Virus record (IMG/VR): IMGVR_UViG_3300046820_000639
Coordinates: 1 to 44,888 of that record
Source of the DNA: a virus
DNA length: 44,888 bases
Reading direction: 5' to 3' (one strand)
The translations under genes were made by a program, and so were the position numbers. Of this stretch, positions 3,960 to 26,969 are shown one piece after another. The notes under the pieces were generated by a model. That model did no database searches, was not told where the DNA came from, and saw only the letters and a program-made list of their open reading frames with translations. Every line of letters begins with the position of its first letter. The first letter of the stretch is position 1.

Positions 3960-3968
3960 ATAAATACT
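3960..3968 (+). promoter_or_regulatory. Late-type promoter motif ATAAATACT
   Basis: ATAAATACT on the plus strand, 27 nt before the ATG of the next plus-strand gene. It resembles the T4 late promoter octamer TATAAATA. The same string precedes the plus-strand gene at 42109 at a similar distance. Confidence 0.55.
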
Positions 3969-12670: not shown

Positions 12671-13084
12671 ATGCAATATTTTACCTACATATGGATTGAT
12701 AAATCTAGAAAAATGTTTTACATCGGAATACACGAAGGAAAAGTAGATGACAACTACGTTTCTTCTAGTAGGTGGTTTAATGGTGAATACCAATATCGCC
12801 CGGGCGATTTTAAACGAAAAATACTTAAACTTTTTGATAACAGAGCTTCCGCAAGAAAAGAAGAAGCAAGATTACTTGCATTAGTTAAAGAAGCTGAGTT
12901 TGGAACTAGATACTATAACCTCAAAACAGGAAGACCTAAGGGCACTCCTGCATCAAACAAAGGTAAATCAATGTCGCTGGAACAGAGAGAAAAACTTAGT
13001 GCCGCCAAATTGGGGAAAACTTCGGTAAGAAAAGGTATTCCTAATAAAATAAAGCTAGTTGATTCTGTTTCCAAGTTCAACTAG
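12671..13084 (+). CDS. GIY-YIG homing endonuclease with NUMOD3-like motif
   Basis: A 137-residue protein from the ATG at 12671 (strong GGAGG upstream; an upstream in-frame start is rejected). The N-terminus YFTYIWIDKSRKMFYIGIHE is a divergent GIY-YIG core. Later come RASARKEEARLL with the usual Glu-containing helix, and a GTPASNKGKSMSLEQREKLS / KLGKTSVRKGIPNK region typical of NUMOD3 DNA-binding repeats. It is free-standing, converges on the tmRNA gene and stops at its edge, so the tmRNA locus may be its homing site. Confidence 0.85.
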   Translation: MQYFTYIWIDKSRKMFYIGIHEGKVDDNYVSSSRWFNGEYQYRPGDFKRKILKLFDNRASARKEEARLLALVKEAEFGTRYYNLKTGRPKGTPASNKGKSMSLEQREKLSAAKLGKTSVRKGIPNKIKLVDSVSKFN

Positions 13085-13402
13085 CAAAACTCAGATGGGC
13101 CTAAGTTAGGCGGCCATCAAAAATGCGTTATCATTTGCATTTAAAGGTTTTGCTTCTACGACCGGGTTCCCCCAATCCTAACGGGTTCTGCTTTCCCGTG
13201 CTGTCTGCTCTGCTACTTAATACCACGTCGAAACCTGGTCAGGCCCATCATAAAAGGACTAATGCAAACACAACAAGAACAACTATTATACCTATTCCTA
13301 GGCTGGTTAGATCGTCATTCATGCTAATCTCCTTATGGTGGACCTGGAGGGAATCGAACCCTCGTCCGCAACACCTTTTACATCACTTCATACAGCAATA
13401 AC
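13085..13402 (-). ncRNA. ssrA: Permuted two-piece tmRNA (ssrA)
   Basis: On the minus strand the acceptor piece comes first (about 13402-13336). It has T-arm stem GAGGG / CCCTC, loop TTCGATT, acceptor strand CAGGTCC, discriminator A and an encoded CCA at 13338-13336. The coding piece follows (13246 to about 13085), starting GGGCCTGACCAGGTTTCGAC, the tmRNA 5' signature. GGGCCTG pairs with CAGGTCC over 7 bp and includes G3-U70, the alanine identity pair. ACAGCA in the coding piece can pair with TGCTGT in the acceptor piece (helix 2). The order is circularly permuted, as in alphaproteobacterial and some betaproteobacterial or cyanobacterial genes. Exact processing ends are estimated. Confidence 0.93.
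13106..13138 (-). other. tmRNA tag reading frame
   Basis: From the resume codon GCA at 13138 the frame reads ANDNAFLMAA and ends in TAA. The start AND and the end AA fit known degradation tags, but the third-last residue is Met rather than the usual Leu or Val. The stop lies in a hairpin GCCTA / TAGGC, the expected helix 5. Confidence 0.92.
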
Positions 13403-13403
13403 T

Positions 13404-13559
13404 TTAATTATAACCTCTAATCACATTATTGTCAATCTTAGGATTACCTTTGGCTAATACAACCTTGTTGGCTTCTTTTTCCCGCTGTTCACGTTCAAGC
13501 TCTTTGACCGTTTGTGTTTTATCTGTTCTACTACTTGACAATTTTGTGGGTTGTTGCAT
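13404..13559 (-). CDS. Small charged protein upstream of tmRNA, 51 aa
   Basis: From the ATG at 13559 (MQQPTKLSSSRTDKTQTVKE), a highly charged coiled-coil-like helix (ELEREQREKEANKVVLAKGN). Its stop codon lies directly against the tmRNA acceptor piece, so the two could share a transcript. AATAAATACT lies 5 nt upstream of the ATG and no Shine-Dalgarno is seen. The longer frame to 13640 is rejected because it crosses that motif. Confidence 0.55.
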   Translation of the reverse strand: MQQPTKLSSSRTDKTQTVKELEREQREKEANKVVLAKGNPKIDNNVIRGYN

Positions 13560-17874: not shown

Positions 17875-18631
17875 TATTGAGAAACTTTCTTTTTATTTCG
17901 TCGAAACAAGCAATATCTTGCTCTGTTAATTGTGTGTTGTTAACCATGTTGCGGAAAAACTCTGCACGTATTTCCAAATCTCGTATGTTATCCGGATATT
18001 TGAATTCTTCTGTAACACCAGCAACATCGTATGCATCCATGATAATATGATAACGATCAATGTTGCTATCATTACTTACTTGATGAGGAACGTTGACCCA
18101 AATAATGTAAACCGAACCATCAGCTGGCATGTGAAATGCTGTGCCATCTGCGTTATGTATGCAAGCAGGATCTGTTATAACTGGGATATGTATACGAGCC
18201 ATGTATTTTTCACGTGGGCCGTCACTGTGTAATAAAGTTTTGCCACCCGGACGTAATATGCTTACCCTAGCCCGCCTGATGTAAAATCCCAATGCTTGTA
18301 TTTGCTTTAATGCATCGGCAATAGGTCCAACACAGGCTTCGGTGGGATTCTTGTGTTCAAACGGATCACTGATATCTAAATACTTTACGGCTTTAAAGTT
18401 GGGCTCGCCATTGGGAAATATTAAATGTTCTGCAGGATGGCCGGTGTGCCCGACCTCCCAACCATCCTGCCACTGCCCTGTGCGTGTGGTCAATGACCAA
18501 CCGCCAAAGTTATTGTAGCCGTATTCTTCACCTTGAAATATAGGTGAGCCTAATTTAAAAATGTGTTCAGTCAGTGTTTGTTGAATAGCACCAACATCTA
18601 CCTTCAGCGGTAGAAGTTCATATGGTTTCAT
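17849..18631 (-). CDS. 2OG-Fe(II) oxygenase, aspartyl/asparaginyl beta-hydroxylase-like
   Basis: A 260-residue protein. The iron-binding HxD...H set appears as LLHSDGPREKYMARIHIPVI near residue 138 and WVNVPHQVSNDSNIDRYHII near 185, with the Arg of RYH a candidate for 2-oxoglutarate binding. This matches the Asp/Asn hydroxylase branch of phage 2OG oxygenases. The substrate may be a protein or a small molecule. The start overlaps the GH19 stop by 4 nt; the 3' end overlaps the SGNH gene by 26 nt. Confidence 0.75.
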   Translation of the reverse strand: MKPYELLPLKVDVGAIQQTLTEHIFKLGSPIFQGEEYGYNNFGGWSLTTRTGQWQDGWEVGHTGHPAEHLIFPNGEPNFKAVKYLDISDPFEHKNPTEACVGPIADALKQIQALGFYIRRARVSILRPGGKTLLHSDGPREKYMARIHIPVITDPACIHNADGTAFHMPADGSVYIIWVNVPHQVSNDSNIDRYHIIMDAYDVAGVTEEFKYPDNIRDLEIRAEFFRNMVNNTQLTEQDIACFDEIKRKFLNNEYTSKRM

Positions 18632-19368
18632 TTTGAAGCGTATTGTTGAAGTTTTTTCTGTCTTTGTTTCAGATGTTTCATACCCGGATTGATTGCTTTT
18701 GTTACTGCCTTGGTAGTTGCTTTGCTGGTATCGAAGTTAGCTACCTTAGGAGCAACACGATTGTTCCAGTACCATACTGCGGCCTTGGCAGCAACATCGG
18801 GACGTTCCATTAGTTCTGGATACTGTTCTAAGGGCAGTCCCAGGGCTTTGCCTGCTTGTGCATAATTGTAACGACCAGTAATTTGTAAGAATCCGCGACC
18901 TTTGTAACGTTCTCCGTCGCCGACTTGCGTGTTGCCTAATGCTTTAGCTTTCTTGGGTGCAAACTTGGGATCGTATTTCTTATCAAAATATTTTTTTGAT
19001 CCAATTTCCGTCATATGCTTAAAGTTTAACGTCTCGTGTGCGGCTTGGGCAAGTAATTGTGCTAGTTCATTGCCCATAATACCCGATGCTTTGGCTACAG
19101 TGGCCAAAAGTTTTTCCGGCGGCAAACTGTTTATGTTTGATTTTGTAACGTCTGTTTTTGCAATAGCATTTGGTATTTCAATTTTTGGTGTAGGACTAGT
19201 TGCTTGTGCTGTTACTGCTGGTACAGCTTGTTGTTGCTGTGGGCTGGCTTTTTGGCTAATGTAGTCATCTACTGCTACCCCACCTGCCGCGGCACCTACT
19301 AGACCTAATGCGGCAAGATTTTCCTTCCAACCTTCGTCAAGTTGCTTAGTGAATTCCTGTGCTCTCAT
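18628..19368 (-). CDS. GH19 lysozyme/chitinase with T4-like capsid-targeting leader
   Basis: A 246-residue protein. Residues 1-13 (MRAQEFTKQLDEG) match the leader shared by this cassette, with LDE as a possible prohead-protease site. Next is an Ala/Gly/Gln-rich linker (to about 100), then a GH19 domain: QAAHETLNFKHMTEIG with the catalytic acid, and GERYKGRGFLQITGRYNYAQ with the second Glu and the substrate-binding loop. GH19 enzymes cut chitin or peptidoglycan. With the leader, a virion-packaged wall hydrolase is inferred rather than a classical endolysin. ATGA coupled on both sides. Confidence 0.85.
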   Translation of the reverse strand: MRAQEFTKQLDEGWKENLAALGLVGAAAGGVAVDDYISQKASPQQQQAVPAVTAQATSPTPKIEIPNAIAKTDVTKSNINSLPPEKLLATVAKASGIMGNELAQLLAQAAHETLNFKHMTEIGSKKYFDKKYDPKFAPKKAKALGNTQVGDGERYKGRGFLQITGRYNYAQAGKALGLPLEQYPELMERPDVAAKAAVWYWNNRVAPKVANFDTSKATTKAVTKAINPGMKHLKQRQKKLQQYASK

Positions 19369-20636
19369 TCTAAGTATGCACCATATTTTGCAAAAACTTT
19401 GTCCAGCAAGTCATCAGCATTGTCGCCATTATCGAAGTATTGACGCTCAAGTTCTTCTTCATCGTCGCTCCATGTGTCGTTTTCTGCACGGTGACGATTC
19501 ATATATGCACTTAATATGTCTGCTAGTTTTTCTACTACAGCTAAGAATTCTGGTCTCCAATCGTCTCCGCTACCACCCGTAAATGTACGAGCATATCCAG
19601 AATCACCGTAGTCAAAGTCTGTACGAACAACTGCTGTGTCTCCTGTCTTGGTATCTACTAACACCCAAGCAACATCACCTGAATTATACAAGTCAATTTC
19701 CCTGTCGTGCAAGTCAACTCCGGTAGCGGCATAGATCTTTTGCCCTAGATTGGTATTAACTAATTCGTCACTTTGGTGAGACATCATGCTAAAACTCATA
19801 ATGTCTTTATCGCCATGCCACTTGGCATTTTGTTCAAGATATTTTTTGCTTTGTGCTACAAACTTACGTGCTGTTTCTGTGTTCATTAAATCAACTGTTG
19901 AAGTTTTTATCGCAATATCTTCAAAGGCTATTTTTAAACTAGGATAGTTTGCTACAACTTTTCTTAAGTCAACAGCACGATCTTGCTCGTCCATGTACTG
20001 TCGTGATTCAAAATGAAACTGGTATTTTTCTCCCGCATATTTAGGTTTCTTAGGAAGAATAATATATAGTTGACCTTGTTGGCTGTAGTGCTTGAACATG
20101 TTATTAGTCTTGGCCGCAGTACACCAACGTGTACCTTGTCCGTAATAGCATGCCGCTGTTTGATCTGTAGGAACAATAATTCTTACTGAATTGTCCTCGT
20201 AGAATATACGACTTTGACCTTTGTCGACTAGTTGTTCTTGATTGGGGTTAGGATATTCGTCCACTACACTCATGAAGTCTGCAATACTAGTGTAACGCAT
20301 GAAGTCGTTGCGTGGACTTGGAATCATGCGTTTTTGTTTTAGCTTGTGAAACTTGGCAATGTAGTCCGCTACAGTTGACCCCATGTCCTCAAATTTGATA
20401 CCACCTTTGCTATATAAGTTCGCTAGTGCTTGTGCATATTCTTTGTTAGGCGTTGGATCACAGTCTTCGATAGTATTTAATACCACATCAGCTAGTTGTT
20501 CATCAGTTACATACTCGGGATCTCTAAAGTCTCGGGGAATACTATTATCTCTACGTGCCACAGCAACAATCTTAGAACCAAAGTTGGCTTCAGTTTTGCT
20601 ACGATCGTATTCTAGTAAAAATTGATAGGCTCTCAT
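19365..20636 (-). CDS. Uncharacterised phage protein with GTRWCTA motif and capsid-targeting-like leader
   Basis: A 423-residue protein. The leader MRAYQFLLEYDRSK carries LLE, a T4-type prohead-protease site. The central domain (residues about 140-230) has ACYYGQGTRWCTAAKTNNMF, LYIILPKKPKYAGEKYQFHF and QYMDEQDRAVDLRKV, a motif set I recognise from many large-phage hypothetical proteins. The C-terminus is acidic (DNDTW..DDEEELERQYFDNG type). Function unknown. The leader suggests packaging in the head. Confidence 0.75.
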   Translation of the reverse strand: MRAYQFLLEYDRSKTEANFGSKIVAVARRDNSIPRDFRDPEYVTDEQLADVVLNTIEDCDPTPNKEYAQALANLYSKGGIKFEDMGSTVADYIAKFHKLKQKRMIPSPRNDFMRYTSIADFMSVVDEYPNPNQEQLVDKGQSRIFYEDNSVRIIVPTDQTAACYYGQGTRWCTAAKTNNMFKHYSQQGQLYIILPKKPKYAGEKYQFHFESRQYMDEQDRAVDLRKVVANYPSLKIAFEDIAIKTSTVDLMNTETARKFVAQSKKYLEQNAKWHGDKDIMSFSMMSHQSDELVNTNLGQKIYAATGVDLHDREIDLYNSGDVAWVLVDTKTGDTAVVRTDFDYGDSGYARTFTGGSGDDWRPEFLAVVEKLADILSAYMNRHRAENDTWSDDEEELERQYFDNGDNADDLLDKVFAKYGAYLE

Positions 20637-20962
20637 TACGCTACTCTAATTGTTGGTACTAAATCAGCCCACGGGTGTCCCTCAATGACTGTCTTTAATC
20701 TTAATATTCTTTGCTCGGGATCAACCATGGTTAATCCTATTGATATATTTAATTCTTGACTATGTAACCAAAATCTTTGCCCGGCTGCAAATTTTTTAAA
20801 TTTTGGTTTAATGGATGTAACGGTGTTGAGTAATTGATCGATACTATGGGGATTTATGTTTCTTTGTTTTACACGCTGAAACGCATGAGAATCTACTTGT
20901 ATAGTGTAGCTACCACGTGTTAATGGTGCGGCATGTTCTACAATAAATTCTTTGGCTCTCAT
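20636..20962 (-). CDS. DUF4258/RelE-like small protein with capsid-targeting-like leader
   Basis: A 108-residue protein. The leader MRAKEFIVEHAAP carries IVE and is very close to the T4 internal-protein leader. The remainder has DSHAFQRVKQRNINPHSIDQ, the HAxxRxxxRxI motif of DUF4258/BrnT-like toxin-type proteins, then KKFAAGQRFWLHSQELNISI and a beta-rich end. It could be an RNase-like effector delivered with DNA; activity is inferred from the fold only. TAATG and ATGA overlaps. Confidence 0.7.
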   Translation of the reverse strand: MRAKEFIVEHAAPLTRGSYTIQVDSHAFQRVKQRNINPHSIDQLLNTVTSIKPKFKKFAAGQRFWLHSQELNISIGLTMVDPEQRILRLKTVIEGHPWADLVPTIRVA

Positions 20963-21330
20963 CTTGCTTGAATCTCTTTTACTCGTTGTACAGTAAAGTA
21001 TGGAGCCAAAGATTTCATTACCACTGTTTCAAATGTAGCACCTGGGTCTTTGTAGGTCTGTGGATACCATCCGGCATCATATTCGTTGATATATAAACTG
21101 CCGTTTACAGCTCGTTTAACATGCTTGGCTGCAATTTTTTTAATGTCATCTGGCAACGGTCTGCCGTTCCATCCACCATAGTGTTGCTTAACTAATTTGC
21201 CTTTGTATTGACGAGCAGTCTTTTGTTGTTGTGCTTGTCTACGCAACATCAATTCTAACTGGTCGCGTTTTTCCTCTTCGTCAGGATCAAACGTCCAAGG
21301 GCTTTCATTTAATAATTCGTATAAAAACAT
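20959..21330 (-). CDS. Hypothetical cargo-cassette protein, 123 aa
   Basis: Starts MFLYELLNESPWTFDPDEEE: the MRA is replaced, but LYE and LNE are (L/I)xE sites within the first nine residues. A basic helical region (LMLRRQAQQQKTARQYKGKL) and a YINEYDAGWYPQTYKDPG segment follow. No domain recognised. Coupled to both neighbours within the cassette. Confidence 0.65.
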   Translation of the reverse strand: MFLYELLNESPWTFDPDEEEKRDQLELMLRRQAQQQKTARQYKGKLVKQHYGGWNGRPLPDDIKKIAAKHVKRAVNGSLYINEYDAGWYPQTYKDPGATFETVVMKSLAPYFTVQRVKEIQAR

Positions 21331-21968
21331 TAGGCAAAGTGTCCTATATATGCCGGTGCATACACACCGTTGTGAACACCATATTGGCGCAGAAGAGCAA
21401 TCATACGATGATGCCCTTCTAGTAACTCGAATCCACCTTGAGGATCATTAATTGATTTACGTGGGTGTAGTACAACAATCAATGGCTCTTTGATAAAGCC
21501 ACTACGTTTAACTATTTCATCTTGTGTACCAATACGCTTGGTATGTCGAGGAATTTTATCTGCTAGTTTGCTAGGGTCTTCGCCGGCCATTGCGGCTAGT
21601 TTGCTTTGTGTTGTACTATCCCAACTGTCCCATGAGAAAAATGTGTTTGCCTTGGTCCAACGCTTGATAGGATACTGTTGTTTCAAATATTGTATATGTG
21701 GCATTAAACTTTCTGCCCATTTCTTTTCTTGAAACTGTGCAACAACTTGTTTGTATTTTTCTAAATCAATTGAGCCATCACCGCGTGTAGCTAATTGTTT
21801 AGCTTCGTCGGTTTCTGCTTGTGTAACAGGAAAGCCTGAGCGTACAGCTTTGTTCATGCGTCCTAGCAATAGGTCACGAACAACATAGTCTGGCCAACCC
21901 GGAAAATGTTGCTGTAATAAACGCAACACTCCTCCGCGGTATTCTATTAAAAAGTCTTGTGCTCTCAT
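21330..21968 (-). CDS. ParB/sulfiredoxin-fold protein with capsid-targeting-like leader
   Basis: A 212-residue protein. The leader MRAQDFLIEYRGG carries LIE. The C-terminal domain has EPLIVVLHPRKSINDPQGGF and ELLEGHHRMIALLRQYGVHN, the GHHR core of the ParB N-terminal/sulfiredoxin-like fold (ATP- or CTP-binding, sometimes nuclease). The middle is helical. In this cassette it may act on host nucleic acid after entry; substrate unknown. Confidence 0.75.
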   Translation of the reverse strand: MRAQDFLIEYRGGVLRLLQQHFPGWPDYVVRDLLLGRMNKAVRSGFPVTQAETDEAKQLATRGDGSIDLEKYKQVVAQFQEKKWAESLMPHIQYLKQQYPIKRWTKANTFFSWDSWDSTTQSKLAAMAGEDPSKLADKIPRHTKRIGTQDEIVKRSGFIKEPLIVVLHPRKSINDPQGGFELLEGHHRMIALLRQYGVHNGVYAPAYIGHFA

Positions 21969-22663
21969 AGGCTTAGGTCTGCATCCTGTTCTCGGTGATA
22001 TGCTTTATTTAACTTATCTAAATAACCTAGATTTCTAAGCACTTTAAATGTTAGATTTTCTACACCAAACTCGCCGTATTGATCTAACCCACTACGACGC
22101 ATTTTACGAATCTTATCTGTTACACGTTTGATATCCTCAGGATCATTGGCATTGGCAATAGCTCGGTCAATTTCCTGTATTAGGTTTTTAACTTTTTGAT
22201 TTACAGAACGATCATCTATGTTAGGTGGATTATAGTCAGGCTCTTTAAGCCATTTGCCATCTAGTAGACTATACATACCGCCTGACACAGGTGGCTCGTT
22301 TACATCTTCCACGTACAATTCTGCTTCATGTCCACGTATCATAATGTCGTGGTTATCATTCCAGATTTGTTTCTTGGCACGATAGAACGCTTCTGCAATA
22401 TCATCACATTGTAAATCTGCATACTCAGTCACAACATGTATATCAAAGTCACTGAATTTGGTCCAGTTATAGTTGGCCATAGACCCTGTTAAAACAATGT
22501 CCAACACACGGAAGTTAGGAATATCAAGATAGCTAACAAATGTCTGTGCAATCTTAAGACACTTGTATCTAACTTCCATACGCATTTCTGAACCCTGCCA
22601 TGCCGCTGGATTCAGATTGTTGTGGTATGCCACATTGTTTTTAACGTAGTCTCTAGCTCTCAT
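21965..22663 (-). CDS. Nucleotidyltransferase-fold protein
   Basis: A 232-residue protein starting MRARDYVKNNVAYHNN: it keeps MRA but has no clear (L/I)xE site. Near residue 60, VLTGSMANYNWTKFSDFDIH gives the GS...DxD signature of the MNT/polymerase-beta-type nucleotidyltransferase fold; the third carboxylate may be in HEAELYVEDV. It would transfer NMP to a protein, RNA or small molecule. It follows the nuclease gene by 6 nt and is ATGA-coupled to the ParB-fold gene. Confidence 0.8.
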   Translation of the reverse strand: MRARDYVKNNVAYHNNLNPAAWQGSEMRMEVRYKCLKIAQTFVSYLDIPNFRVLDIVLTGSMANYNWTKFSDFDIHVVTEYADLQCDDIAEAFYRAKKQIWNDNHDIMIRGHEAELYVEDVNEPPVSGGMYSLLDGKWLKEPDYNPPNIDDRSVNQKVKNLIQEIDRAIANANDPEDIKRVTDKIRKMRRSGLDQYGEFGVENLTFKVLRNLGYLDKLNKAYHREQDADLSL

Positions 22664-22669
22664 ATTATA

Positions 22670-23104
22670 TTAGTTACACCAGCTTTGTTTTGCATCGCCA
22701 AAATATTCGCGAGCAAAGCCATTGCGAATCAATTCAGCACGTAGGCTAACACCATTTAGAATGATGTCCCCCAATACACGACCACCGAACTTATCCCATC
22801 CATAGAGAATGACCTGGTGCTGTTGCGTAGTTGCAACTGCATTCTTAGTGAAGGCACTTGCGGCTTGTCCTCGCTGATCTTCAGAAGGGCATTGGGCACG
22901 GAATCCTTTTTCTGGGGTGTCAACACCAAAGACTCGGACAGCAAGTTCTGGTTTAAGTGGTGCTGGGAGAAAGGGTGCCGCTATGACTACAGTATCACCA
23001 TCGTTTACACGAATGATTTTAGCGTCATAGGTTACTCCTTGCGGTGTTTTTTGTGCTAGTGCTAGTGTGGGAACTAGTAATAATACGGCTAATAATTTTT
23101 TCAT
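22670..23104 (-). CDS. Secreted thermonuclease (SNase) family protein
   Basis: A 144-residue protein. Residues 1-17 (MKKLLAVLLLVPTLALA) form a Sec signal peptide, so the mature enzyme is periplasmic. The SNase fold is shown by IIRVNDGDTVVIA, VRVFGVDTPEKGFRAQCP (Arg and Asp of the active site) and LYGWDKFGGRVLGDIILNGV. The second Arg of the triad fits GGRVLGD. It cuts DNA or RNA with Ca2+ in the family. It has a signal peptide rather than the MRA leader of its neighbours. Confidence 0.88.
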   Translation of the reverse strand: MKKLLAVLLLVPTLALAQKTPQGVTYDAKIIRVNDGDTVVIAAPFLPAPLKPELAVRVFGVDTPEKGFRAQCPSEDQRGQAASAFTKNAVATTQQHQVILYGWDKFGGRVLGDIILNGVSLRAELIRNGFAREYFGDAKQSWCN

Positions 23105-23116
23105 TGATTTTTCCTT

Positions 23117-25333
23117 TTAAATTCTTCTTACTCTCATGAAGCCTGGCGGCATGCCATTGGCCTCTTGTCGATTAATGTATTCTCTTATTTCATCAGCTGT
23201 AACATTACGTAGTGTGTCAAAAACTTCGTTGGGTGTATCGTACTGATATAATTCAACATCGCCTCTAGGTGCTTGAGACCTACTTCTATCTGCGGCATCA
23301 ACTGCTCCTGCAATATCTGGTTGGATATCTTTGACTGTAGAGTCTTTAGCTGGTCCTGTTTTAATACGTTTAGCAAGTTCTGCACGTCTACTCAATGGTT
23401 TTCTTACTGTGTCAAACTCAGAATAAGATCTAATATAATAGTCAACACCTGCATGCTTGTCCATTGCTAAATCTGCGGCTTCGCCTCTTGTGGCAGATTT
23501 AATTATGTCAATGATTTCGTCAGTTTCTCTATTAACTACTGCCCATTGTCCAGTGTTGGCTGATGTGTCTAACAACTCATATTGTTTCTTAAATCCTTCC
23601 ATTGACGAACCTGGACTAAGATCTTGTTTGGCTTTTGCTATAGCTTCGTCGTAGGTAAAATTACCATACTGTTTACCAGCTACAGGCTTGCCTGTGGTTT
23701 TATCATATAATTGCCATGTACTCTTTTTAAGAGTCTCAGGCGCATCTTTAGCCAATGCTGTTTCTGCCCATTGTTTCTTTAGTTCTTCTTTGGTAATTAC
23801 GCCAGCAGTATACTTTGCAAATAGTTCTAAGCTAGGATCTGATTTTTCTGGGGCAATAAGTTTGTACAACTTCTTAGCATACTCTTTACGCTCTAAGTCG
23901 GCACGGCTGGCAATGTGCATGGCCTGTGCATAACGCATCATGGTATTTTCTAGTCTATCAATACTGTCTGTGTATTCTTCACCGCCAGCACTACGGAATT
24001 CAATATAGCCTTGGTGCGGATTAATACTGGTGTACTTGCCAAAGTCGCCTTTGCTAATACTACGGCTAGCCAACTCAATCAAGTTACCACGCATCAACTC
24101 CATAGCGTCAGTTACCTTGGCATTGCCTCTGGCTATACTAGAACGAATCTTTTTCATTGCGGCTTCAGTAAAGTGATTACTGCTACGGCCAAATTCTTTT
24201 AATACGTGTTCGTCACCTAGGAATAGTGCCAACTTAACAAAGTCGACATTACCGCCAGCGTATGGTAAACTTACTCCCATATGGAAGCCAGTGGACCTAT
24301 TACTGTAAGCACCATTGCTGATTGCCCACTTAAAGAATTCACGCATCTTGTCTAGTGCTTCCTTAATAGGCATTGGTGGACTAACAATTTCTACTGGCAT
24401 ATCACCTGAGTCGGCATCAAGACTTGAGTCTGGTTCAAAAATCCAAGTTACATCATCTCGACGAGCACTATGGTATCCGCCTGATACTTTGGTTTTTACG
24501 CCAAGTACTTCACTTAAATCATCTGCTAGTCGTTGTGCATTTTGTTCACTGTATCCTGATTCGTTGCCACCAGAGCCGGTCATGTAAGGCCAATCTAAAT
24601 CAAATTGATCACGAACATCGCTCATCCAGCGTAGGCCAACATCACTAAAGAAACTACTGTCGTCATCTACTTGGAAATCGTTGCGGAACTCATCTAGGGC
24701 CATGTCATAGAAACCGTCTTGATCAGCAAGACTGTTTTCTGCTTGTGTTTGTAAGTCGTTTTCTGCTTGATCACGACCTTCTAAATAGTTGTCATAGGCT
24801 TTGCTGGCTTCTCTGGCCGCATTTTGATCGCTTAATTTAGTGTAGCGTGGTGCTGACTCGCCTGCTTCCATAGCGGCATCAACTTCTTCGTCGCTGAGTC
24901 CCATGGCTTCTAGTGCTTCACGAGTTTTGTCGTCCCAGTCCCACTCTTCGTCTTCGATGACTTTTTTAATTAACTCTTCTGCTTCGTCACGGAATGCATC
25001 GTACATTTGTTCGTCGTACCATTCCATGTACATTTCATCAAGACCGTTGCGTAGTTCACGTTCGCCACGAGGACTTAGTCCGTAGCCCCATTCATCATTG
25101 CTGAAAAAGTCAATAACTTCGTCAATAGACGAACAACGCTCGTCCATATCCATGTCCGGTTCCCAATCTTCTGGGTCAGATTCGCCTAAGCCTGTGAATA
25201 CTAATTCAGCTTCAAATCCAGCACGTATGCCTTCGGCTTCGGGACTGTTAATAAATGATTTGAGCGAGCTAGGGCTCATGCGTAGCTCGTCTAATTGTTC
25301 TTCTGTGAGTGTTCTAAAGTCTGTAAAACGCAT
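23117..25333 (-). CDS. Amidoligase_2-like enzyme with cassette leader, 738 aa
   Basis: The largest protein here. The leader MRFTDFRTLTEEQLDELR contains LDE. An acidic region (residues about 40-200) precedes the catalytic region: AGFEAELVFTG (about 40), VTWIFEPDSSLDADSGDMPV then EIVSPPMPIKEALDKMREFF and STGFHMGVSLPYAGGNVDFV (about 290-370). These match the GCS-like amidoligase_2 fold (D-S-L, EIVSPP, GxHxx). The family joins carboxylates to amines with ATP. The C-terminal 250 residues show internal WxLxDxxTG-like units. First gene of the coupled cassette. Confidence 0.75.
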   Translation of the reverse strand: MRFTDFRTLTEEQLDELRMSPSSLKSFINSPEAEGIRAGFEAELVFTGLGESDPEDWEPDMDMDERCSSIDEVIDFFSNDEWGYGLSPRGERELRNGLDEMYMEWYDEQMYDAFRDEAEELIKKVIEDEEWDWDDKTREALEAMGLSDEEVDAAMEAGESAPRYTKLSDQNAAREASKAYDNYLEGRDQAENDLQTQAENSLADQDGFYDMALDEFRNDFQVDDDSSFFSDVGLRWMSDVRDQFDLDWPYMTGSGGNESGYSEQNAQRLADDLSEVLGVKTKVSGGYHSARRDDVTWIFEPDSSLDADSGDMPVEIVSPPMPIKEALDKMREFFKWAISNGAYSNRSTGFHMGVSLPYAGGNVDFVKLALFLGDEHVLKEFGRSSNHFTEAAMKKIRSSIARGNAKVTDAMELMRGNLIELASRSISKGDFGKYTSINPHQGYIEFRSAGGEEYTDSIDRLENTMMRYAQAMHIASRADLERKEYAKKLYKLIAPEKSDPSLELFAKYTAGVITKEELKKQWAETALAKDAPETLKKSTWQLYDKTTGKPVAGKQYGNFTYDEAIAKAKQDLSPGSSMEGFKKQYELLDTSANTGQWAVVNRETDEIIDIIKSATRGEAADLAMDKHAGVDYYIRSYSEFDTVRKPLSRRAELAKRIKTGPAKDSTVKDIQPDIAGAVDAADRSRSQAPRGDVELYQYDTPNEVFDTLRNVTADEIREYINRQEANGMPPGFMRVRRI

Positions 25334-25360: not shown

Positions 25361-25981
25361 TTAACTATTTACCGTATCTTTATCGTTTAAGATATTTGAT
25401 GTATAGTCGTAATTTACCATCATTCCGTGGCTTTGTGTACGACGTTTTTCGCTTTTATCTGCATTTGGGATAGCACGTAGCACTTTAGCACCATTGGCCA
25501 AATGAAACTTAGCCACAGGATCTCCTTGTGCTTTTAAGAACTCAACAACAGCTTCAACACTAGGTGGTTCACTGAAATGAGCACTTAGGTTTGGAATAGG
25601 ACTCATGGTAACAAAGTTACGCACCTGTGGCATGTTTTCTTTGATCCATGTTGCGGCTTCACGTATAAGCACAGCACCTACATTTTTTAATTGGGTAGCT
25701 ACATCTGTGCGGAATACGCTGTAAAAAATAGCATGACTAGCACGAGTTGATACCGGACTGTTGTTGTCTAGTATGTCATCAATGTCATCGGGTAGGCCAC
25801 CTGTGTAGGCTACACAAAGCACAGCAACGGGTTTATCGTTTTCTAACAAAAAGAAAATATTACGATCATAACGACAACGACGCAACAAGGTTCTTGCGTC
25901 AGTTATACTGTGTACGGGGTCTTGGAATATGTACTGATAGAAATCAGTGTTGAAATTTTTGGATCTTAAGTGGGCGAGCAT
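25361..25981 (-). CDS. Malonyl-CoA decarboxylase-like catalytic domain (GNAT fold)
   Basis: A 206-residue protein that resembles the C-terminal catalytic domain of malonyl-CoA decarboxylase along its length. In order: VHSITDARTLLRRCRYDRNI, PVAVLCVAYTGGLPDDIDDI, HAIFYSVFRTDVATQL, NFVTMSPIPNL (catalytic Ser in SPIP) and DPVAKFHLANGAKVLR (catalytic His in FHL), ending MMVNYDY. MCD turns malonyl-CoA into acetyl-CoA and CO2. The helical N-terminal oligomerisation domain of cellular MCD is absent. AGGA precedes the ATG; a late-type motif lies upstream. Confidence 0.75.
   Translation of the reverse strand: MLAHLRSKNFNTDFYQYIFQDPVHSITDARTLLRRCRYDRNIFFLLENDKPVAVLCVAYTGGLPDDIDDILDNNSPVSTRASHAIFYSVFRTDVATQLKNVGAVLIREAATWIKENMPQVRNFVTMSPIPNLSAHFSEPPSVEAVVEFLKAQGDPVAKFHLANGAKVLRAIPNADKSEKRRTQSHGMMVNYDYTSNILNDKDTVNS
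25365..25373 (-). promoter_or_regulatory. Late-type motif GGTAAATAG upstream of the cargo cassette
   Basis: Minus strand, 31 nt before the ATG at 25333 and inside the end of the upstream gene. It lies in one arm of an imperfect inverted repeat (25336-25348 against 25368-25380, 12 of 13 positions paired). The core matches the motif in the palindrome at 16021. Confidence 0.45.
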
Positions 25982-26005: not shown

Positions 26006-26015
26006 CGTATTTATT
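26006..26015 (-). promoter_or_regulatory. Late-type motif AATAAATACG
   Basis: Minus strand, about 24 nt before the ATG of the MCD-like gene, with AGGA in between. Confidence 0.5.
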
Positions 26016-26039: not shown

Positions 26040-26969
26040 TTATGATTTTACGTAAGGTACCAATGCCTTTATACTGGTCATGCCACGTTTGCGAGCGGCA
26101 GTGACTCGGTGATTACCATCTAATACCCAACCTTCATCATCCACTACAATAGGTTTACGTTCTATGTCGTGTGTAGTAATATCGTCAATGTGATCCCAGT
26201 CCAAGTCAATTACTCTGCGGTAACGGTCGTCCTGGTCATAAAATTCTGGAGTTTTTAATGTGCGTATAGGCACATGCTTTAATTGCCACGCTTTGTGATC
26301 TAATATAGGTTTGTCTAGAGTATAGCCATCTGCATGGATGCCCTTTACATACTTTAGAACCTGCTTGTTGGTGTATAGTTTGTTATTTCCGGTATTAGTG
26401 GCTTGCTCAAAATCTTCTTCTACAGATTCTGTTTGCACTTTGCCGGCTAAGGCTAAACGAAGTTTCTTTAATGCTTGATCGCACTCACCGTCTTGGTATA
26501 ATATACCGATACCACCATTGGCTTCCCATAAGCGTATATTGGTTGCATAATCATCTATTAAAATGTTAGGAGTGCCATCGGGTTGACGTGCGAATCTTTC
26601 TTTGTTGTGATCAAATAATATAGACTTCGGTGAGTGTTTGGTTAAATGCTTTTCTAACCATTCGGCTTTTTCTCTAGTGCTTTGTTCTATTTCGCTCATT
26701 AACGGACTAGACAATATACTATACTTGCCAGCATACTTTAGCACACCGTGTATTAGTTTACCTGCTTCGGGTAATGGCTGTAGATTTTCAAAAAATCCTG
26801 GTGTTTGTGCTACTTGCTCAATGCGGTCTTTTTCTTTGCGGGCTTGACGCCAATGCTCGGACCCTTCCCCTTTGGCCGCGGCACCAAAGAAGTCAGCAAG
26901 AACCCCGTCCATATCTACATAAACAACAGGTGGCTTTGGGTTATTGCTTTCGAACTCAAATGATTTCAT
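26040..26969 (-). CDS. HAD-type 5'-nucleotidase fused to ParB-fold domain
   Basis: A 309-residue two-domain protein. Residues about 15-175 form a HAD phosphatase of the 5'(3')-deoxyribonucleotidase type: VVYVDMDGVLADFFG (DxDG nucleophile), YSILSSPLMSE (motif II Ser), and ILIDDYATNIRLWEANGG (acidic motif IV). Residues about 200-309 form a ParB-like domain ending VLDGNHRVTAARKRGMTSIK. The nucleotidase part may remove phosphate from dNMPs. The start MKSFEFESNN only loosely resembles the cassette leader. Confidence 0.8.
   Translation of the reverse strand: MKSFEFESNNPKPPVVYVDMDGVLADFFGAAAKGEGSEHWRQARKEKDRIEQVAQTPGFFENLQPLPEAGKLIHGVLKYAGKYSILSSPLMSEIEQSTREKAEWLEKHLTKHSPKSILFDHNKERFARQPDGTPNILIDDYATNIRLWEANGGIGILYQDGECDQALKKLRLALAGKVQTESVEEDFEQATNTGNNKLYTNKQVLKYVKGIHADGYTLDKPILDHKAWQLKHVPIRTLKTPEFYDQDDRYRRVIDLDWDHIDDITTHDIERKPIVVDDEGWVLDGNHRVTAARKRGMTSIKALVPYVKS

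Follow-up and report, generated by a model that had tools for sequence, protein, structure and literature searches.

Phage T4 carries three small internal proteins, each of which inhibits type IV restriction enzymes (PMC12373910). They begin with a short leader in which residues 4 and 7 drive targeting, residues 8 and 10 drive processing, and cleavage follows L/I-x-E; a T4 leader whose last residue is Asp still directs targeting (PMC9026906). In the T4 genome, IPII and IPIII begin MKTYQEFIAE/A and IPI begins MKTFKEFTSTTTPVSTITE/A (MKTFKEF...ITE/A, with the slash marking the cut), and among the T-even phages at least ten internal proteins are known that have the leader as their sole shared part (PMC12373910). 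Here we describe, on a viral contig of 44,888 bases (a linear fragment by classification; IMG/VR record IMGVR_UViG_3300046820_000639, referred to below as the window), a cluster of minus-strand genes, most of whose products start with leaders of this kind, with the consensus MRAxEF[IL]xE against MKTYQEFIAE in T4. Sequence comparison with its relatives suggests that phages of this group load a large, changing set of enzymes into the head and probably inject them.

Both T4 layouts are mirrored here, the compact one in MRAQDFLIE and the split one in MRAQEF...QLDE, and the functional residues of the T4 leader correspond to F6, I/L7, and E9. As in T4, a propeptide of 10–19 residues with an aromatic and acidic front and an L/I-x-E end precedes unrelated bodies, and T4-like head genes and an S77 protease are present in the clade. 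As far as sequence can decide, the cluster has the defining features of a T4 internal-protein system. In contrast to the three small T4 inhibitors, the proteins here are enzymes of several hundred residues, belong to dozens of families, and are encoded in operon-sized clusters and polyproteins.

Other described systems share parts of this picture. T4 Alt is a packaged, gp21-processed ADP-ribosyltransferase (PMC9026906), and a leader protein of one relative matches ADPrib_exo_Tox; however, Alt is a single enzyme, and the window cluster has no recognized ADP-ribosyltransferase. The polyvalent proteins (Iyer et al. 2017, PMC5512222) are enzyme-rich, multidomain, and predicted to be packaged and injected, with ParB and nucleotidyltransferase domains among them; the signal found here on separate genes or polyproteins, a T4-type leader with L/I-x-E at the domain junctions, does not appear in the passages of that paper that were examined. 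In phiKZ and SPN3US, with the prohead protease gp245, many head proteins likewise lose N-terminal propeptides and are ejected into the host (PMC10052503), but these phages form another giant-phage lineage, their propeptides are mostly 111–254 residues long, and no common short leader marks an enzyme cassette. The P1 Dar proteins (DarA, Hdf, and DdrB) are described as internal, processed, injected, and anti-restriction (PMC12810830, PMC5512222), in a different type of phage. The principle is therefore known from T4, while the scale, the enzymatic cargo, the polyprotein organization, and the unmasking of export signals appear new. Within the open literature searched, what appears new is, specifically, one tag on scores of families in distant T4-like phages, cut sites at polyprotein junctions, and export signals behind the cut.

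Leader genes of the window

The initial annotation of this DNA had read seven N-termini in a coupled run of genes as T4-like capsid-targeting leaders or variants of them. All seven were found on the minus strand where it had placed them, and neighboring genes overlap or abut as described; its list omitted the SNase-like gene that interrupts the run and the leader-like prefix of a further cluster protein upstream. The features are as follows.

18628-19368, minus strand: GH19 (chitinase class I/endolysin-like) hydrolase with leader (Pfam PF00182, E=5.8e-12; PHROG endolysin, E=2.1e-37)
19333-19368, minus strand: leader MRAQEFTKQLDE of the GH19 protein, split like that of T4 IPI (targeting part MRAQEF, putative cut site QLDE)
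19261-19332, minus strand: hydrophobic segment GWKENLAALGLVGAAAGGVAVDDY immediately behind the putative GH19 cut site; at the equivalent position, homologues carry either a hydrophobic or a Tat-type segment
19365-20636, minus strand: 423-residue protein with conserved GQGTRWCTA core; its homologue is a mass spectrometry (MS)-detected virion protein of phage PA5oct
20610-20636, minus strand: leader MRAYQFLLE of the 423-residue protein; [LI]xE stands before Y in the unique junction contexts of the family (41/41)
20636-20962, minus strand: 108-residue leader protein, DUF4258-like by eye, without a Pfam match
20936-20962, minus strand: leader MRAKEFIVE of the 108-residue protein; homologue MRATEFIIE in L305/L201
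20959-21330, minus strand: 123-residue leader protein, no homologue among the fetched loci
21304-21330, minus strand: variant leader MFLYELLNE of the 123-residue protein, similar to MFLTELFE and MFLSQLFE on NMNAT-like proteins of relatives
21330-21968, minus strand: 212-residue leader protein, weakly ParB-like (PHROG, E=0.0067)
21942-21968, minus strand: leader MRAQDFLIE of the 212-residue protein; homologues read LVE/YQGG, ILE/YRQG, and LFE/YQGG
21965-22663, minus strand: nucleotidyltransferase (phrog_36119; Pfam borderline, 4.4e-4)
22646-22663, minus strand: leader-like prefix MRARDY of the nucleotidyltransferase (start MRARDYVKNN), without cut site; MRARDF in close relatives
22670-23104, minus strand: SNase-like nuclease lacking a capsid leader and bearing a Sec-type signal peptide of its own (Pfam SNase, E=1.6e-9)
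23117-25333, minus strand: amidoligase_2-domain protein with leader (Pfam PF12224, E=4.2e-7)
25286-25333, minus strand: leader MRFTDFRTLTEEQLDE of the amidoligase; homologues have [LI]xE before (V/I/L/A)xM
26007-26014, minus strand: T4-late-promoter-like ATAAATAC upstream of the cluster, suggestive only
26040-26969, minus strand: NT5C nucleotidase and ParB-like fusion, part of the cluster gene set (NT5C, E=1.7e-12)

Six window genes encode a short N-terminal propeptide ending in L/I-x-E. The Pfam and PHROG matches bear out the earlier GH19 and amidoligase labels, the ParB-fold label of the 212-residue protein has a weak PHROG match, and the DUF4258-like label lacks Pfam support; the T4 form that had been invoked is indeed the start of IPII and IPIII. 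Homologues of the GH19 protein keep LxE ahead of (G/D)W, homologues of the 212-residue protein occur within polyproteins too, and cyanophage homologues of the nucleotidyltransferase have LLSE or LISE near the N-terminus. The ParB-like part of the NT5C fusion resembles a G001 leader protein beginning MRAREFITE, while its NT5C part is fused to a nucleotidyltransferase in G009 (G001 and G009 being related viral contigs).

Leaders, predicted cut sites, and putative cargo across relatives

Conservation of L/I-x-E at the junction of leader and body is the strongest test, at the level of sequence, of a cut site under selection. Alignment-based scans gave 80 loci with homologues of the 423-residue protein and 80 with amidoligase homologues; a scan with the lone amidoligase sequence returned no matches, so that an alignment query was required, and a DNA-level search of phage records with the cluster as query found no match either. 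Leader sequence and leader length vary among the homologues (MRARHFITE, MRLQELLAENITLLE, MKLRELFESSVLLE, MRYNEIKSVILE, and others), yet in the 423-residue family [LI]xE lies directly ahead of the conserved body in all 41 parsed contexts. In the amidoligase family it stands at the start of the body in 60 of 65 contexts by regular expression, and the remaining five read QLDE by eye. By comparison, [LI]xE has a background rate of 1.07% per site. In 29 of the 65 contexts the amidoligase domain is internal to a fusion, over 100 residues from the N-terminus, and it retains the site at its start. L/I-x-E is likewise kept in homologues of the GH19 and 212-residue proteins, both at N-termini and within fusions.

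An AlphaFold model of the 423-residue protein, built on a 44-sequence alignment, agrees with this division. Its body begins at residue ~11, and residues ~11–265 have per-residue confidence (pLDDT) above 90 in most blocks, whereas the first ten residues average 60 and lack secondary structure; in the model, the leader is unfolded. Comparison of this protein with the PDB gave no fold matches and no convincing sequence match. For the GQGTRWCTA domain, comparison with BFVD gave fold-level matches to giant-virus proteins, Marseillevirus-like and Indivirus.

Leaders are more frequent in the clusters than chance would provide. Using a regular expression for the leader (M[KR], then [DENQR][FLIVY], then [LI]xE by residue 17), we found matches in five of nine cluster genes and in none of the 73 other window genes (Fisher p=4.6e-6). 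The same comparison of genes inside and outside the cluster gave 5/27 versus 0/220 in G001, 7/14 versus 0/86 in G005, 2/12 versus 3/310 in G009, and 2/28 versus 0/202 in G010. Around the homologues, 222 of 1,586 unique open reading frames (ORFs) matched, against 8.8 expected when residues 2–17 were shuffled (maximum 18 in 50 shuffles); at internal Met residues of these ORFs the rate was 0.5%, and MRAxx[FY] starts occurred in 3 of 760 background ORFs.

What follows the leader is highly varied. Clustering by N-anchored similarity, used in place of single-linkage clustering (55 clusters), which multidomain chaining distorts, divided 276 leader proteins into 95 body families. When 84 representatives were aligned, MRxxEFIxE was the sole common part, the representatives having been selected by that pattern. 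Pfam matches include GH19, amidoligase, nucleotidyltransferase, GNAT, sigma-70 region 4, ADP-ribosyltransferase-family, superoxide dismutase, pterin dehydratase, gamma-glutamyl cyclotransferase, and several domains of unknown function (DUFs); most of the dozens of leader-bearing families match no Pfam model. G005 has two GH19 genes, one leader-bearing in the cluster and one leaderless elsewhere, and leaderless GH19 genes are present in G001 and G009 as well, a pairing that fits a split between packaged and lysis enzymes. In the window only the NT5C and ParB-like protein joins several domains in one polypeptide, whereas relatives have fused ORFs of 1,200–2,080 residues, combining nucleotidyltransferase with amidoligase and others (L248-L270 and other amidoligase loci), which look like protease-processed polyproteins.

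Related starts occur farther afield. NMNAT-like nucleotidyltransferases at L148:6738-7607 (Synechococcus phage S-B68), L149:6692-7549 (S-CRM01), and L009:1874-2620 have the leader-like starts MKNFNSFLTEAE, MKLFNQFFKEAE, and MFLTELFEA, and cyanophages may use the same leader device. In a distant relative (L012:16672-18062 and 18428-20669), consecutive genes have other repeated starts that end in an acidic site; three of them are of the type MKITKSQLKQIIKEE and others of the type LFENWRxFVEE, and these may be the leaders of a different phage group.

A further pattern concerns twin-arginine translocation (Tat) signals, several of which are buried 48–500 residues inside polypeptides. Among 3,295 unique ORFs there are five distinct Tat-like signals, and all five lie directly behind [LI]xE. 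A separate scan, in which all viral contigs were searched with a Tat core pattern, added further cases: SEELDE/IDRRGFLKGLGA (SEELDE/IDRRGFLKG) at residue ~110, GSLDE/VDRR at ~205, MLDE/IDRR at ~250, EQLEE/IDRR at ~500, and MKITE/IDRR at the N-terminus of a LysM-like protein. Overall, [LI]xE ends 2–3 residues before the arginines in 10 of 13 distinct cases, against a background of 2.3% per position; the exceptions are KVDE/VDRR, TNE/DLDRR, and VNERRG. The loci are L213:8439-9965, L221:520-1149, L263:9086-9484, L283:7961-9223, L325, L326, L330, L332, and L134:14476-16722 (G009). L221 combines a leader, a Tat signal, and GH19, and L331 combines Tat with a GH19-like sequence. Because a Tat signal deep within a protein works only if the preceding part is removed, these signals provide independent support for cleavage. 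In the window, the GH19 protein has a hydrophobic stretch behind QLDE without a twin arginine; this segment, GWKENLAALGLVGAAAGGVAVDDY, is a candidate export or membrane signal that cleavage would unmask. Judged from these sequences, the chance that cleavage by the capsid protease unmasks Tat or Sec export signals in the relatives is about even. After cleavage in the head, the injected enzyme would then carry a Tat or Sec signal newly exposed at its N-terminus, and folded cargo such as GH19 hydrolases could use it to reach the periplasm of the cell just infected.

Protease, virion proteins, and neighboring sequence

Querying with the nucleotidyltransferase identified 12 viral contigs, 11 of them at 62–70% identity, including G001 (218,902 bases). 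The majority have leader runs on the strand of the match, and in several of them the run is flanked by ClpA-like and DNA polymerase genes. Clustering of MRAxxFxxE-type starts, for which the initial annotation proposed a search, is seen in relatives up to 355 kb. G001 shares 28 ORFs with the window, mostly collinear and up to 91% identical. Its final gene encodes a T4 gp21-type S77 protease (E=1.3e-20) and is preceded by portal and gp67/gp68-like genes. The gp21-like protease that the initial annotation proposed to look for is absent from the 44.9-kb fragment itself and present in G001; eight further records, related contigs or named phages, carry it too (G008, G009, G010, PA5oct, Atu_ph07, and cyanophages). 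L029 and other longer flanks have the order gp21-gp22-gp23, with gp23 identified by its position behind gp21 and gp22 because a Pfam search for it gave no match even in the controls, and all three have conserved L/I-x-E positions in the clade.

In the Pseudomonas phage PA5oct, EST35_0205 is a homologue of the 423-residue protein (tblastn E=7e-22), starts MKLFEVFTLYE/DK, and is recorded as a structural protein by electrospray ionization tandem MS (ESI-MS/MS). The stretch from ClpA to DNA polymerase in PA5oct is rich in MS-detected proteins, most of them without such leaders. For Atu_ph07, 131 virion proteins have been reported (PMC6102473); its amidoligase homologue (AUZ94978) starts MRWQDISSKKLTE/LKM.

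The motif ATAAATAC occurs upstream of two cluster genes and has seven matches in the whole window, compared with 2.86 expected; five of the seven copies (at 3960, 26007, 26976, 30619, and 42080) precede a same-strand gene start by 6–35 bases. On this suggestive evidence, it may be a late-promoter motif of the clade. No T4-type TATAAATA late promoters were found within the window. PADLOC defense models gave only a weak SNase-domain match in the window (E=7.5e-5) and nothing convincing. Between the amidoligase and NT5C genes, the leaderless gene at 25361-25981 (minus strand) has a strong Pfam MCD match (malonyl-CoA decarboxylase C-terminal domain, E=1.2e-32), atypical for a phage, with a 55% relative at L286:3410-4012. 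ARAGORN reports a tmRNA gene (marked tmRNA*) at 13015-13428 (minus strand) with the tag peptide ANDNAFLMAA.

Proposed packaging and injection, and alternative explanations

Taken together, the clustering of the leaders, the protease in relatives, L/I-x-E at the junctions, and one family with an MS-detected homologue support the view that the leaders are of the T4-like type proposed by the initial annotation, and they are very probably capsid-targeting propeptides that package the cluster proteins. By analogy with T4, the leader proteins would also, with good probability, be injected as effectors. The cluster would be expressed late in infection, to which ATAAATAC points weakly. The basic and aromatic front of the leader, M[RK]Ax[DE]F, would bind the prohead core and thereby bring enzymes with unrelated folds inside the prohead, where the S77 (gp21-type) protease would cut past L/I-x-E and free the mature enzyme. 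Retained in the filled head, the enzymes would enter the next host alongside the DNA and act ahead of any phage gene expression. In the many relatives with polyproteins, cut sites at domain junctions would allow one leader to deliver several enzymes.

Several observations weigh against this account. The nucleotidyltransferase and the NT5C protein (start MKSFEFES, with the leader-like prefix MKSFEF) keep the prefix and lack the cut site; the former may be packaged uncut, as the continued targeting of T4 leaders ending in Asp would allow, or its prefix may be part of the enzyme. The LDEVxM of the amidoligases could partly reflect a feature of the fold at the domain start. A search of the 44.9-kb window for an S77 protease found none, as expected of a fragment. 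The virion evidence comes from the PA5oct homologue EST35_0205 and is indirect for the window phage and its close relatives. Among PA5oct proteins, L/IxE alone is not enriched in those detected by MS (10/93 versus 29/340, p=0.31), and the full leader pattern (5/93 versus 3/340, p=0.013) gives weak support because the regular expression was adjusted with the list already seen.

An alternative that we consider unlikely accepts the leaders as capsid-targeting but takes the mature products to be structural or assembly parts of the head, such as core or decoration proteins, and not injected effectors. The T4 core proteins gp67, gp68, and gp22 are likewise gp21 substrates (PMC9026906), the gp67-like EST35_0150 of PA5oct has such a start (MKINDIITE), and the Atu_ph07 amidoligase gene adjoins the portal gene. 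However, the cargo is catalytic, comprising GH19, amidoligase, and nucleotidyltransferase here and, elsewhere, GNAT, an ADP-ribosyltransferase-family domain, superoxide dismutase, and gamma-glutamyl cyclotransferase; its turnover among relatives is rapid, as the 95 families attest, and its genes lie away from the head genes, between those for the ClpA-like protein and DNA polymerase.

The position of the ClpA-like gene beside the cluster in several relatives, together with ClpP-like proteins encoded in the window, could instead point to a tag for degradation or adaptor recognition by the phage's own Clp machinery, or to another intracellular address, as the role of the common N-terminus. We considered this role and rejected it as very improbable, since a Clp tag leaves unexplained the invariant L/I-x-E at the junctions, its recurrence inside polyproteins, the match to the T4 leaders, and the MS-detected homologue.

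Finally, the tight coupling of the genes, in which several start codons overlap the preceding stop, might suggest that the similar starts are a by-product of duplication, 5'-end recombination, or selection on translation initiation with no role at the protein level, but we discount this almost entirely because the bodies are non-homologous, the amino acid positions F6, [IL]7, and E9 are conserved, L/I-x-E is found again at positions hundreds of residues away from a start, the 20-mers upstream of the leaders are 15–35% identical, and the leader Ala codons differ synonymously. The unrelated upstream DNA and synonymous differences indicate that the likeness of the leaders is maintained at the protein level, and they also rule out a duplicated DNA cassette as the leaders' origin.

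Leaders of this type could also serve as a means of loading enzymes into phage heads. The initial annotation's suggestion that a multi-enzyme set of this kind had not been described as a system needs softening, in that T-even internal proteins with a shared leader are known (PMC12373910) and packaged polyvalent proteins have been predicted (PMC5512222). If the packaging account is correct, a large group of uncultured T4-like phages, with genomes of up to 355 kb, loads dozens of unrelated enzymes by means of one short tag, and the T4 internal-protein idea would reach beyond three restriction inhibitors to sets of enzymes and to polyproteins processed by a protease. The account would also raise the new idea that a capsid protease unmasks export signals. 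The tag would then be a handle for genome mining, with tagged genes of any fold predicted to be active in the first minutes of infection, and dozens of leader-bearing families, most of them without a Pfam model, would gain testable roles.

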